A DNA stretch of 64,000 nt from Pseudoxanthomonas sp. CF385 (lineage in GTDB: Bacteria; Pseudomonadota; Gammaproteobacteria; Xanthomonadales; Xanthomonadaceae): positions 62,001-126,000 of the forward strand of contig NZ_FNKZ01000002.1 in assembly GCF_900104255.1 (NCBI RefSeq). Direction: 5' to 3'. Below the pieces are notes generated by a model. The model was not told the origin of the DNA, ran no database searches, and saw only the letters and a program-made list of their open reading frames with translations. The translations under genes were made by a program, and so were the position numbers. Each line of letters opens with the position of its first letter. Within the stretch, counting starts at the first letter, position 1. Positions 57,397-61,904 of the stretch are shown one piece after another.

Positions 57397-59232
57397 TCAG
57401 CGCGGAATCGCCAACTGGCTCGCTTCGACGGTGCCGGCACCGCGCGGCTGGGCGTTGATGAGCGCATTGGCCGGCAGCTCGCGACTGCCGTCCAGGGTGG
57501 CGCTGACCTGGTCCAGCGCGGCGTAGACATAGGGCAGCAGCGGTACGTAGCGCGCGCCATACGCCGGCAGGGCGAGGAAGCCGTCGAAGTGTTGCGCGTT
57601 GCGCACCTGCCAGTAGCGCACGTCCGGGTTGGCGGCGCGCGCGGCCTGCACGTACGGCGCGCTCGAGAACGCCGGCGGCACCAGCCCGTCGTCCAGGCCG
57701 TGGATCACCACCACCGGACGGCGCGTCCGCGGGAAGCGCGCGGCGGTCTGTGCGATGCCGGCCTGCACGCGACGCGCCTCGTCGCTGGTGCCGGTCTGCA
57801 GCGCACGCAGGCACTGCAGGCCCGGCAGGGTGAAGTCCGGGGGGGCCAGCTTCGTGTCCACGATGCCGACGCCCGCGCCCGGCGGAATGCCGCTGCCGTC
57901 CGTCAACCAGGCCGCGCGCTCGGCGGCGCTCGCGGCGCGCGCGCTGAAGTCCGGGTTCTGGGCGGAGAACGCAAACGCGCATGGATGTTCGCCGACGCCG
58001 TAGCGGCCATAGGCGGAGGCGTACGTCACCGCCACCGCGCGCCAGAGGTCGAAGCCGACGCTCAGCGCGCCGGCCACCAGCGCCTCGTCGGTCCAGCCGT
58101 TCGCCTTCAGCTGCGCGCGGGCCGAGGCCGCCTGCGCTTTCGCATCGCCTCCGGTGACCAGGCCTGCCGCCTTCAGCGTGGCGCAGCGCGCCGTCCACAG
58201 CGGCTCCACCTGCGCGCGCAACGGCGGCTGAGGCAGCGATTCCGCCGGCAGATCCAGCAGCGCGCACGGCATCAGCAGGGCGGCTTCGGTGGTGTAGTCG
58301 TACAGTGAGCGCGCACCGGGCGCGTCGGCCGCGAGGATGTTCGGTTCGCCGGCCACCACTGCGTCCAGCCAACGACCCTCTTCCTCGCTGGCGCGCAGGA
58401 CCGCGCCTCCGCCGTTGGAGATGCCGACAGCGATGACGCGCGTGTTGTCGAAACGGAACGGCGCAGCCTGCGGGAACGCCTGGTCCAGCGCGGCCAGCGC
58501 GAACTCGGCGGCCTGCTTCACGTGGCGGCCCCAGTCCGCTTCCGGGTTGTCCTTGGAATGCGCGTGCTTGACCGCCACGCCGCTGGCGCCGACCGGCGCG
58601 TCGGGCACGAAGGCGAGCGCGTCGGTGCCCAGCGCACCGAGGGTGCCGTCCTCGCGCGCACCCTGTTGTTCGTCGAGATCGAAGTAATCCGTACCCGCGC
58701 CCTTGTCGGTGTAGGCGATCGCGCAGCCCTTCGGCAGGCCCCACGGCGCAGCGACGGCGATGGCGCCGTAGATGCCGCGCGAACCCGATGATGCAGTGAC
58801 GACGATGCAGCGCTTCACCGTATCGAAGCTGTCCGGCACCTGCACCAGCACGCGGTGCGGCTGGGTCGCGCCCGGCACCTTCGCCAACGCCGAATATTCG
58901 CGCCCGGGCACGCTCGCCACGCTGCCGTAGGCCTGCGCGTAGCCGCCCGTGGGCGACAGGTCGGCGATGCCGCGCCAGTTCGCCCAGATCGCGCGGCGAC
59001 GCAGTTCGGCCGCCGTCGGATGGGCAGGATCGGCGAACGCGGGGGCGGCTATCGCGCGCAGGCCCTCGAGTCCGAGGCCCGCGGTGAGCAAGTCGTCGCC
59101 GCCGCGGTGCTCGGTAGTGCGCTGGGGCTGGATCATGTGGGCCACGGCCTCGGGCTTGGAGGGGGCGCTGGTGCAGCCGGCGAGCATCGCCGCCAGCCAT
59201 ACACCGCAGGAAACTCGGATCGTCGCGTTCAT
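57397..59232 (-). CDS. 3-hydroxybutyrate oligomer hydrolase, lipoprotein-like
   Basis: 611 residues. The N-terminus MNATIRVSCGVWLAAMLAGC looks like a lipoprotein signal (lipobox LAGC, Cys20). The mature protein matches D-(-)-3-hydroxybutyrate oligomer hydrolase: ATPRGIYGAI-like region (SSGSRGIYGAIAVAAPWGLPKGCAIAYTDKG), active Ser in VIAVGISNGGG, and VVVIHGLDDGLVPPAF. It cleaves PHB oligomers to 3-hydroxybutyrate. Placement next to phaEC and 3-hydroxybutyrate dehydrogenase supports this. Lipid anchoring suggests it handles oligomers in the periplasm or outside rather than the internal granule. Confidence 0.92.
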   Translation of the reverse strand: MNATIRVSCGVWLAAMLAGCTSAPSKPEAVAHMIQPQRTTEHRGGDDLLTAGLGLEGLRAIAAPAFADPAHPTAAELRRRAIWANWRGIADLSPTGGYAQAYGSVASVPGREYSALAKVPGATQPHRVLVQVPDSFDTVKRCIVVTASSGSRGIYGAIAVAAPWGLPKGCAIAYTDKGAGTDYFDLDEQQGAREDGTLGALGTDALAFVPDAPVGASGVAVKHAHSKDNPEADWGRHVKQAAEFALAALDQAFPQAAPFRFDNTRVIAVGISNGGGAVLRASEEEGRWLDAVVAGEPNILAADAPGARSLYDYTTEAALLMPCALLDLPAESLPQPPLRAQVEPLWTARCATLKAAGLVTGGDAKAQAASARAQLKANGWTDEALVAGALSVGFDLWRAVAVTYASAYGRYGVGEHPCAFAFSAQNPDFSARAASAAERAAWLTDGSGIPPGAGVGIVDTKLAPPDFTLPGLQCLRALQTGTSDEARRVQAGIAQTAARFPRTRRPVVVIHGLDDGLVPPAFSSAPYVQAARAANPDVRYWQVRNAQHFDGFLALPAYGARYVPLLPYVYAALDQVSATLDGSRELPANALINAQPRGAGTVEASQLAIPR

Positions 59233-59365
59233 GCCTGGATTGCGTCCATGGTTCCGGTCAATGCCACGAAACTACCCCGATGGGAAAGCCCCGTCATCGT
59301 ACTTTGGTACCACGAACGGATCCTGCACGCCTGCTACCCTAACCGCAGCACGCAGGAGTTCCCCC

Positions 59366-60133
59366 ATGCAGAACACCCACACCCTCCTCATCACCGGCGC
59401 GGCCAGCGGCATCGGCGCCGGCATCGCCGCGCAGCTGGCCGAAGCCGGCCGCCACGTCATCGTCAGCGACCTGAACCTGGACGCCGCCGAGGCCGTGGCC
59501 GCGCAGATCCGCGCCGCCGGCGGTTCGGCCGAAGCGGTCGCGCTGGACGTCACCTCCCAGGACAGCATCGATGCCGCGCTGGCGGCGGTGTCGCGACCGA
59601 TCGACGTGCTGGTCAACAATGCAGGCCTGCAGCATGTGTCGCCGCTGGAAGACTTCCCGATCGAGAAGTGGGATTTCCTCGTCCAGGTGATGCTGGTCGG
59701 CGTGGCCCGCCTGACCCGCGCGGTGCTCCCCGGCATGCGCGAGCGTGGCTTCGGCCGCATCGTCAACATCGGCAGCATCCACGCACTGGTCGCCAGTCCC
59801 TACAAGAGCGCGTACGTGGCGGCCAAGCACGGCCTGGTCGGCTTCTCCAAGGTGCTCGCGCTGGAAACCGCCGACACCGACATCACCATCAACACGGTCT
59901 GCCCCAGCTACGTGAAGACGCCGCTGGTCGACAAGCAGATCGCCGACCAGGCGCGCACGCGTGGCATCTCCGAGGCCGACGTGGTCAGCCAGGTGATGCT
60001 GAAGCCGATGCCGAAGGGCGTGTTCATCGGCCTGGACGAGCTGGCCGGCATCACCGCCTTCCTCACCTCGCCGGCCGCGCGCAACATCACCGGCCAGACG
60101 ATCGTGGTGGATGGCGGCTGGACCGTGCAGTAA
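59366..60133 (+). CDS. 3-hydroxybutyrate dehydrogenase
   Basis: 255 residues of the SDR fold, LLITGAASGIGAGIA, NNAGLQHVSPLEDFPIEKWDFL, Ser in NIGSIHALVASPYKSAYVAAKHG (Tyr and Lys in YVAAK) and the long substrate loop NTVCPSYVKTPLVDKQI, all hallmarks of D-3-hydroxybutyrate dehydrogenase (BdhA/PhbD). Gln in LQHVSP and His in IHALVAS are the carboxylate-binding residues. It oxidises 3-hydroxybutyrate to acetoacetate with NAD+. CAGGAG precedes the ATG. Divergent from the oligomer hydrolase with 133 bp between them; followed after ten bases by a response regulator gene. Confidence 0.95.
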   Translation: MQNTHTLLITGAASGIGAGIAAQLAEAGRHVIVSDLNLDAAEAVAAQIRAAGGSAEAVALDVTSQDSIDAALAAVSRPIDVLVNNAGLQHVSPLEDFPIEKWDFLVQVMLVGVARLTRAVLPGMRERGFGRIVNIGSIHALVASPYKSAYVAAKHGLVGFSKVLALETADTDITINTVCPSYVKTPLVDKQIADQARTRGISEADVVSQVMLKPMPKGVFIGLDELAGITAFLTSPAARNITGQTIVVDGGWTVQ

Positions 60134-60143
60134 GCCGCATCGC

Positions 60144-60809
60144 ATGCCCAACCTGCTGATCGCCGACGACCATCCGCTGTTCCGCGCCGCCCTGCGCGGC
60201 GCGGCCGCCGACGCCGTGGCGCAATTGTCGGTGCGCGAGGCCGAATCGCTGGACGGCGTCATCGCCACGCTGGAAGCGCACGACGACATCGACCTGGTCC
60301 TGTTGGACCTGCACATGCCCGGCAACCACGGGCTGGCCGGCCTGGCCGCGATCCGCGCGCAGTTTCCGGCGGTCGCCGTGGTCGTGGTGTCGGCCAACGA
60401 CGACCCCCGCGTGGTGCGGCGCGCGCTGGACCACGGTGCGGCCGGCTACCTGCCGAAGAGTTCCGGCCTGGACGAACTGCGCGATGCGATCCGCAGCGTG
60501 CTGGCATGCGAGCAGTGGCTGCCGGCCTCGTTGCGCGGCGCGGTGGCGCGCGCGCAGTCGTCCGAACACGACACCGAACTGGCCGGTCGCCTGGCCAGCC
60601 TCTCGCCGCAGCAGTTCCGCGTGTTGACGCTGGTGGCGCAGGGTCTGTTGAACAAGCAGATCGCCGACCGCCTCGACGTCCAGGAGCGCACCGTCAAGGC
60701 GCACCTGTCCGCCATCTTCGACCGCCTCGGCGTGCGCAACCGCACCCAGGCCGGCGTGGTGCTGCGCGAACTGGAACTGGCGGACCCGGCGCGGCAGATC
60801 GAGGGCTGA
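60144..60809 (+). CDS. LuxR-type response regulator, CrbR/ErdR-like
   Basis: 221 residues. Receiver (1-125) opens NLLIADDHPLFRAAL, with Asp55 in LVLLDLHMPGNHGLAGL and Lys in YLPKSSG, then a LuxR helix-turn-helix (LSPQQFRVLTLVAQGLLNKQIADRLDVQERTVKAHLSAIFDRLGV). The wording matches the ErdR/CrbR group that activates acetyl-CoA synthetase when acetate is present. The start lies ten bases after the dehydrogenase stop codon, so it is probably co-transcribed with it. A CrbS/MxtR-like kinase, the usual partner, is encoded on the opposite strand at 61890. Confidence 0.93.
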   Translation: MPNLLIADDHPLFRAALRGAAADAVAQLSVREAESLDGVIATLEAHDDIDLVLLDLHMPGNHGLAGLAAIRAQFPAVAVVVVSANDDPRVVRRALDHGAAGYLPKSSGLDELRDAIRSVLACEQWLPASLRGAVARAQSSEHDTELAGRLASLSPQQFRVLTLVAQGLLNKQIADRLDVQERTVKAHLSAIFDRLGVRNRTQAGVVLRELELADPARQIEG

Positions 60810-60851
60810 GGTTCCACGCCGTCTCTTCGGGCGGCGTCATGACGTGGAACC
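60810..60851 (+). terminator. Large hairpin after response regulator
   Basis: GGTTCCACG (60810-60818) and CGTGGAACC (60843-60851) form a perfect nine-base-pair stem starting at the base after the stop codon. An inner GCCG/CGGC match lies in the loop. There is no T-run, so it may be an mRNA-stabilising or Rho-assisted end. Confidence 0.5.
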
Positions 60852-60887
60852 CTGCGTGGATCATGCGTCGCGCGCAATGATCATATT

Positions 60888-61106
60888 TTCGCCACACACC
60901 TTGACAGCATTGCGGCACAACGCGCGCCGACGCTTATCCACATGTTGGTCGACAGACCATCCACACGCGGTGTGGACAACCTCGACACCCACCGGTCATC
61001 GACTGGTCAAAAATTCGCCACACACCTTGACAGGCCTGCGGCACAACGCGCTGACGCGGTTATCCACATGCTTTCCCAAACCCGATCCACACGACATGTG
61101 GACAAG
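60888..61106. repeat. Two tandem units with DnaA boxes, exact 126-bp period
   Basis: Unit 1 (60888-60980) and unit 2 (61014-61106) align over about 93 bp without gaps; the first 20 bases are identical. Each has TTGACA near its start, a perfect DnaA box TTATCCACA (60934-60942; 61060-61068), a TCCACA/TGTGGA inverted repeat (60960-60976; 61086-61102), and a second, oppositely oriented box TGTGGACAA (60971-60979; 61097-61105). In total there are four strong DnaA sites in 172 bp. The arrangement suggests a DnaA titration or DnaA-responsive control region. Confidence 0.8.
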
Positions 61107-61135
61107 CCGGAGCGTGGAACATGCGACAGCTCCCT

Positions 61136-61159
61136 GTAGGAGCGACATAAGTCGCGACC
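61136..61159 (+). repeat. GTAGGAGCGAC-type dispersed repeat
   Basis: GTAGGAGCGACATAAGTCGC followed by GACC. Contains the small palindrome GCGAC-ATAA-GTCGC. Related copies in this window at 61262, 61839 and 61883 show that it belongs to a dispersed family. Confidence 0.8.
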
Positions 61160-61261
61160 GTGGACGCTGGCCACCTTTGTTCCATGAATAACCCAGACGC
61201 GGAGAAACATGCGTCGTAGGAATCAGCGCTCATCCAAGGTGCAGTGACCCCTTTGCATTCC

Positions 61262-61285
61262 GGTAGCGACTTACATCGCTCCTAC
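61262..61285 (-). repeat. GTAGGAGCGAC-type dispersed repeat
   Basis: Reverse-strand copy, GTAGGAGCGATGTAAGTCGC followed by TACC, 20 bp before the Nudix stop codon. Together with the copy at 61136 it forms an inverted pair about 100 bp apart, of the kind that folds into a long RNA hairpin. Confidence 0.75.
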
Positions 61286-61305
61286 AAGGCCAAGCAGCGC
61301 GGCCT

Positions 61306-61794
61306 TCAGATCCGCGAGTAGTCCCACGAGACCATCCGGCCTTCGTGGTACGGCATGACGCCGTGGAAGCTGCGCGGGTCGTCGTCGAACACCAGCGGCA
61401 GGAAGTGGCGGTCGCCGTCCCACAGCGGCAGGTCCATGATCTTCTCCACCGGCACCCATTCCAGCGTCCCCTCCGGATTGCGCTCGAAGGGCGTGCCGCT
61501 GTAGGTCGTGATCAGGAAGACGAAGCCCAGCCAGTCCTCACCGTGCTTGCCGAAGCCCGGCCAGCTGATCGTCCCGCGCAGCGTCATCGCGTCGCAGTCG
61601 ATGCCGGCTTCCTCGTGGATCTCGCGACGCATGCCGGCCACCACGTCTTCGTCGCGCTCGATCTTGCCGCCCAGGCCGTTGTACTTGCCCAGGTGCTGGT
61701 CGTCCGGGCGCGCGTTGCGGTGGATCAGCAATACCTGCGAGCGATCGGGCGACAGCACGTAGCCGAGGGTGGCGACGATGGGGGTATAGGGCAT
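61306..61794 (-). CDS. Nudix hydrolase, 8-oxo-dGTP diphosphatase-like
   Basis: 162 residues. The Nudix box GX5EX7REUXEEXGU is complete at 43-65 (GKIERDE...REIHEEAGI). The N-terminus (PIVATLGYVLSPD...LLIHRNARPDDQHLGKYNGLGGKIE) and the C-terminal WDGDRHFLPLVFDDDPRSFHGVMPY are typical of the MutT/YTKD-like 8-oxo-dGTPase subgroup. It would remove oxidised nucleotides in the cytosol. It lies between a regulator and its probable kinase and has repeat-rich spacers on both sides. Confidence 0.92.
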   Translation of the reverse strand: MPYTPIVATLGYVLSPDRSQVLLIHRNARPDDQHLGKYNGLGGKIERDEDVVAGMRREIHEEAGIDCDAMTLRGTISWPGFGKHGEDWLGFVFLITTYSGTPFERNPEGTLEWVPVEKIMDLPLWDGDRHFLPLVFDDDPRSFHGVMPYHEGRMVSWDYSRI

Positions 61795-61838: not shown

Positions 61839-61904
61839 GTGGGAGCGACGCAAGTCGCGATAGGCCGCCGGCGAGCCCGAGATCGCGACTTACGTCGCTC
61901 CCAC
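61839..61904. repeat. Inverted pair of GTGGGAGCGAC-type repeats
   Basis: Forward copy GTGGGAGCGACGCAAGTCGC plus GA (61839-61860) and its reverse complement (61883-61904), separated by 22 bp. The pair can fold into one hairpin with 20-odd base pairs. The right copy contains the last codons and the TAA stop of the hybrid kinase gene at 61890. It may serve as terminator for both the kinase and, read from the other side, the Nudix leader. Confidence 0.85.

Follow-up and report, generated by a model that had tools for sequence, protein, structure and literature searches.

Tandem DnaA-box units in Pseudoxanthomonas sp. CF385 belong to a conserved Xanthomonadaceae element that is probably a lineage-specific DARS-like site

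The window (the whole stretch of DNA that was analyzed, 64,000 nucleotides of the Pseudoxanthomonas sp. CF385 genome) contains two direct repeats of 102 nt that are 75% identical and spaced at 126 nt. They sit between the stops of two convergent genes, which encode a LuxR-type response regulator upstream (60144-60809, plus strand) and a NUDIX protein downstream (61306-61794, minus strand); we claim this convergence for the window locus only, as the gene strands at other copies came from a simple open reading frame picker and are unreliable. Farther upstream lie a 3HB-oligomer hydrolase gene (57397-59232) and a short-chain dehydrogenase gene (58949-60133), which fit an earlier PHB label. Four GTAG/GTGG-type repeats (GGAGCGAC-AGTCGC; 61136-61155, 61266-61285, 61839-61858, and 61885-61904) lie next to the NUDIX gene in two inverted pairs and resemble dispersed palindromic repeats. 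Within each unit, a Fis-like palindrome is followed by TTATCCACA (55 bp after the palindrome start), a 17-bp spacer (N17), TCCACA, a 5-bp spacer (N5), and TGTGGACAA. The features are as follows (models R1 and R2 are described below).

60878-60979, plus strand (palindrome-to-boxes direction): unit 1, 102-nt repeat, 82.7 bits with R1
60879-60893: Fis-like palindrome of unit 1, GATCATATTTTCGCC, AT-centred Fis pattern, starting 55 bp before the strong box
60900-60907, plus strand: conserved CTTGACAG of unit 1
60934-60942, plus strand: strong DnaA box ("box IV") of unit 1, TTATCCACA, 9/9 to TTWTNCACA
60946-60954, plus strand: degenerate box at the box III place of unit 1, TGGTCGACA, 6/9, 2 bp from box II
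60957-60965, plus strand: box II of unit 1, CCATCCACA, 7/9
60971-60979, minus strand: box I of unit 1, TTGTCCACA, 8/9, facing box II head to head over a 5-bp gap
61004-61105, plus strand: unit 2, 102-nt repeat, 76 bits with R1; 23.4 bits with R2 (E of 1.7e-4 in the genome)
61005-61019: Fis-like palindrome of unit 2, GGTCAAAAATTCGCC, Fis pattern
61026-61033, plus strand: conserved CTTGACAG of unit 2
61060-61068, plus strand: strong DnaA box ("box IV") of unit 2, TTATCCACA, 9/9 to TTWTNCACA
61072-61080, plus strand: degenerate box at the box III place of unit 2, TTTCCCAAA, 7/9, 2 bp from box II
61083-61091, plus strand: box II of unit 2, CGATCCACA, 7/9
61097-61105, minus strand: box I of unit 2, TTGTCCACA, 8/9, facing box II head to head over a 5-bp gap

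An earlier, sequence-only reading had recognized tandem DnaA-box units here, and the repeats, their 126-nt spacing, and their box order are indeed present. Its unit of about 93 bp was too short, because the repeat extends left to the Fis-like palindrome (60879 and 61005) and measures about 102 bp. Of the "four strong boxes" that it counted, two are perfect and two, contained in TGTGGACAA at 60971 and 61097, match the consensus at 8/9; each unit adds a 7/9 box (60957 and 61083) and the degenerate box. TTWTNCACA has no match in the whole window other than the two copies of TTATCCACA, at 60934 and 61060. At least two such matches occurred in 10 of 100 shuffles of the window, so the 9-mer count alone is weak evidence. 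TCCACA-N5-TGTGGA occurs in the window only at 60960 and 61086. The 3.9-Mb genome holds 10 copies of TTATCCACA (6 forward and 4 reverse): 2 in the window, 1 in a third unit, and 2 in the canonical site described below being among them. Between the palindrome and the strong box, CTTGACAG is followed by a TTGCGGCACAA-like dyad (CTTGC-N3-GCAAG) at 60900-60932 and 61026-61058; we recognized no established site in this stretch. A promoter reading of the conserved TTGACA was rejected, as the scan gave no plus-strand promoter-like site and a single minus-strand one (60907-60880). Rfam gave no match to 60600-61400 at E values up to 1.

The units might regulate their neighbours, with DnaA acting as a transcription factor on the 60144 regulator or the NUDIX gene. 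DnaA is a known transcription regulator, as parts of PMC11317965 describe, and unit 1 contains one sigma-70-like match (minus strand, 60907-60880) versus 0.1 expected. Against this, the units are faced by the stops, not the starts, of both flanking genes, and copies elsewhere adjoin different genes; the third unit of this genome is single, lies on the reverse strand of contig C3 (C3:294322-294425), and is situated between an M3 peptidase gene and a DnaJ gene. We therefore regard neighbour regulation as unlikely, and the earlier suggestion that the units couple the adjacent PHB/CrbR-like genes to the cell cycle was not borne out.

The earlier view that the locus is not oriC was supported: dnaA and dnaN, which accompany oriC in this group, lie at about 194.8 to 198.1 kb of contig C1 (G000:C1), whereas the window is on contig C2. 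The boxes outside oriC could also be read as an additional or relic origin or as a phage-borne element, and the exact box pattern was also found in 18 viral contigs. However, 17 of these 18 share another common context, no initiator gene was present among the neighbours examined, and the stretches around the genome's own dnaA contain no head-to-head pair. An origin or phage source is thus highly improbable. The context common to the 17 viral contigs (L338-L355 except L343) comprises two TTATCCACA boxes and the 5-bp head-to-head pair; perhaps it is a phage origin or a site that captures DnaA.

The units are a conserved element. We built a model (R1) from 48 units (alignment A1), which were collected with a pattern demanding the boxes, so that box conservation within A1 is partly circular. 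At E values of ≤0.01, R1 had matches in 167 of the 198 Xanthomonadaceae genomes, representing 49 of 54 genera, with 1 to 13 matches each; a single-sequence search had reached 48 of the 198. When the two spacings were left free within 5-30 and 1-12, N17 and N5 were both exact in 47 of the 48 units, and the remaining unit had 18 and 5, so that N5 was exact in all 48. In 46 of the 48 units, the distance from the start of the Fis-like site to the strong box was 53 to 55 bp (background, 0.0011 per base), and CTTGACAG and the CTTGC-N3-GCAAG dyad were kept in many, not all, of them. The 126-bp period recurred in 8 of 13 compared tandem loci, with periods of 136 to 167 in the other 5. Thus, the interior of the unit is held and the period is not: the constant spacing of the earlier account applies inside the unit, where the exactness of N17 and N5 supports its idea of selection on protein-binding geometry, and fails for the period.

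The gene neighbourhood of the tandem loci was also retained. Among the 13 loci (6 from the host genus and 7 from two other genera), which were picked for having the pair, the regulator or the dehydrogenase gene was within 1.5 kb in all 13 (3 genera) and the NUDIX gene in 11. Loss of the boxes from relatives with the same gene order, which would have spoken against a conserved role, was not seen in these loci, chosen as they were for the pair; in the host genus, 8 of 9 genomes had an R1 match, and one (G063) had no match at all. With the boxes masked, unit identities between genera were 0.620 and 0.645 for like units versus 0.608 for unlike units (0.657 within genomes), a weak sign that the tandem duplication may predate the genera. 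An exact-pattern scan of public genomes matched at least 120 stretches. Among the 80 matches listed, 75 carried Xanthomonadales names and 5 did not; the names included Xanthomonas, Stenotrophomonas, Pseudoxanthomonas, Luteimonas, Lysobacter, Luteibacter, and relatives.

The geometry of the units links them to the DARS elements of Escherichia coli. In DARS1 and DARS2 of strain K-12, we measured the core as box I, 5 bp, box II, 3 bp, and box III, with box I opposite to boxes II and III; the section of the review PMC5742627 on the core layout agrees with this spacing. Passages of PMC10380432, also a review, describe the head-to-head pair as characteristic of DARS and essential, and DARS-similar sequences as conserved across many proteobacterial species; DARS conservation as such is already in print. 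Reversed, each window unit reads box I, 5 bp, box II in head-to-head orientation, 14 bp, and a strong box oriented as box II, and the 14 bp include, at a distance of 2 bp from box II, the degenerate box. The head-to-head boxes I and II of DARS, 5 bp apart, are hence present in both window units. Of 30 variant loci, none has a box III 3 bp away from box II, and 29 have a strong box at 14 bp. Because the canonical box III was tested for and missing, we use the term "DARS-like variant" rather than DARS proper.

Across the class Gammaproteobacteria, R1 gave weak matches in 68 of 369 genomes at E values of ≤0.01, 5 of them from the order. From the 63 genomes with a match outside the order, 25 loci were fetched (L061-L085); L073 was omitted, and 24 were measured. 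The 5-bp pair was present in 22 of the 24, and all 22 had a box of at least 7/9 exactly 3 bp from box II (background, 0.0033 per position). Since box III is absent from R1, its occurrence in 22/22 loci indicates that R1 had led to full DARS cores. A second model (R2) was made from 22 of the 25 loci L061-L085 (alignment A2; L069, L070, and L083 were left out). Among the E. coli stretches, R2 scored DARS1 best (32.1 bits), followed by datA (15.0 bits), the DARS2 core (14.3 bits), and oriC (12.7 bits), with the datA and oriC matches both stopping before box I. Given these scores, only DARS1 stands out among the E. coli sites, and R2 cannot separate DARS2 from datA; the case therefore rests on DARS1 and on the out-of-order cores. 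R1 itself had no convincing match to E. coli DARS1 or DARS2 (best, 7.2 bits; E of 0.036). In the host genome, R2 returned four matches at E values of <0.01, which include a canonical site beside priA (37 bits), the window units (23.4 and 18.3 bits), and the C3 unit (19.1 bits). At E values of ≤0.001, it had matches in 196 of the 198 family genomes and in 322 of the 369 class genomes, its seed genomes included.

On this evidence, we consider it probable (roughly 60%) that each unit is a DARS-like site specific to this lineage and serves to regenerate ATP-DnaA, the recharging itself being inferred. The units differ from the canonical core in their degenerate box III, in the strong box at 14 bp, in the Fis-like palindrome at a fixed distance, and in their mostly origin-distal copies. 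The genome encodes a Fis protein of 90 aa and a DnaA that shares 56% identity with the E. coli protein, K178, R245, D269, R281, R285, and L290 being conserved. Against the DARS-like reading, DnaA has T at position V211 and D at E21.

The label "datA/DARS-type DnaA reservoir" given in the sequence-only reading fared well in its DARS part, through the 5-bp pair and the bridge that the models form to complete DARS cores and to DARS1 of E. coli; its reservoir part survives as a rival. According to this rival, the units are a sink or an inactivation site that damps initiation by titration or by datA-like ATP hydrolysis. Clusters of perfect DnaA boxes bind DnaA in either state, as a sink would, and several copies per genome fit titration. 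R2 also rates datA slightly above the DARS2 core, but its datA match ends at model position 95, ahead of box I. A head-to-head 5-bp pair with a summed score of ≥16 was found in DARS1 and DARS2 only; the window pairs score 15 each, equal to a weak overlapping 5-bp register in datA (15), the strongest head-to-head pair of which is at 3 bp (score, 17). A sink would need neither so rigid a head-to-head 5-bp pair nor kinship with complete I-5-II-3-III cores, and the variant copies lie away from oriC, whereas datA is near it, as stated in part of PMC4585315. We judge a sink possible but rather unlikely.

The canonical DARS-like site of the host genome, at G000:C1:662784-662885 (L019 and L156), is the top R2 match there; it has the 5-bp pair and a box III at 3 bp and is without a strong box at 14 bp. 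A priA gene was within 1.5 kb of the R2-type site in the 12 best family loci (12/12) and in 15 of 41 fetched genomes outside the order, so that this gene neighbourhood recurs elsewhere in the class; priA was also beside 8 of 8 further sites in closed family genomes. In E. coli, the priA-rpmE gap contains no such site (best, 2.3 bits; L322). Among the class sites, L064, L162, and L185 adjoin a gene resembling that for DNA polymerase I and L186 one resembling that for ribosomal protein L31, both named by eye from the letters.

The two kinds of site occupy different parts of the chromosome, with the position of dnaA used as a stand-in for the origin. The priA-side canonical site was 0.07 to 0.12 chromosome lengths from dnaA in 10 closed genomes. 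In 19 closed genomes, 51 of 52 variant clusters (R1 matches at E values of <1e-8, merged within 0.002 of the chromosome) were 0.2 to 0.5 chromosome lengths away, one was at 0.1 to 0.2, and none was nearer; these clusters are mutually dependent, as they include orthologous sites across relatives. In the same genomes, 54 of 70 units (E values of <1e-8) were oriented towards dnaA. Such a bias would be expected of an oriented, origin-distal site in which DnaA boxes have been repurposed to act on replication forks or on the folding of the terminus. By our own grouping, however, only some 8 of 11 distinct sites show this orientation, related genomes do not contribute independent signals, and in genus g16 (G138 and G173) the matches at the neighbourhood of the tandem units point the opposite way. 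Terminus-type polarity was accordingly retained as a weak rival, which we hold to be very unlikely.

If the units are DARS-like sites, DnaA would assemble on the noncoding unit, shed ADP, rebind ATP, and go on to fire oriC. DnaA molecules on boxes I and II, which lie face to face across 5 bp, would presumably be in contact. Behind box II, the strong box IV and the degenerate box III would place further DnaA molecules in head-to-tail order, which could steady the complex, and Fis, bound to the palindrome some 40 bp away from box IV, might bend the DNA and couple the site to growth. The family retains the canonical DARS-like site beside priA near oriC, and the rewired form has multiplied, mostly at origin-distal places; tandem units may add dosage. 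More tentatively, the Xanthomonadales may have split DnaA recharging between the canonical priA-side site near oriC and a rewired, multiplied, late-replicating form; the number of late sites copied so far would then signal the progress of replication and act as a dosage clock for the next initiation. In our searches of the open-access literature, we found no account of a rewired, multicopy, mostly origin-distal form or of a priA-side canonical site, and no paper that treats DARS and DnaA boxes together in Xanthomonas. DARS has been worked out in E. coli; if the units recharge DnaA, then the head-to-head pair is the needed part of its core and box III a movable part, and dosage models of initiation timing become testable by deleting or moving copies.

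The units can be compared with four known or related sites. Like E. coli datA, which we take to lie in the glyVXY-queG gap, they are a cluster of DnaA boxes outside oriC; unlike them, datA has its top head-to-head pair at 3 bp, and its best R2 stretch is without box I. An IHF site in the box cluster, a datA feature, was not found in 60850-61130, where the IHF consensus YAANNNNTTGATW has no match (a consensus scan, which weak sites would escape). DARS2, presumably located in the gap before mutH, has an identical 5-bp head-to-head pair. As parts of PMC4245941 describe, it is activated by Fis and IHF (PMC8682772, in part, also reports the involvement of Fis), and sections of PMC4245941 and PMC5742627 present it as requiring IHF and as richer in boxes and Fis sites, which are spread over about 455 bp. 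The window, in contrast, has no IHF consensus and one Fis-like palindrome, defined by pattern only, per 102-bp unit. The priA-side site of the same genome shares the 5-bp pair and the R2 match with the units but has a box III at 3 bp, lacks the strong box at 14 bp, and is closer to dnaA. DARS1, for which we assume the bioD-uvrB gap, is a single-copy site with box III 3 bp from box II, whereas the window variant has a degenerate box III, a strong box at 14 bp, and several copies. The two nevertheless have the 5-bp head-to-head arrangement of boxes I and II in common, DARS1 is the best E. coli match of R2, and a weak box-like GTTTTCTAA occupies in DARS1 the place of the variant's strong box.
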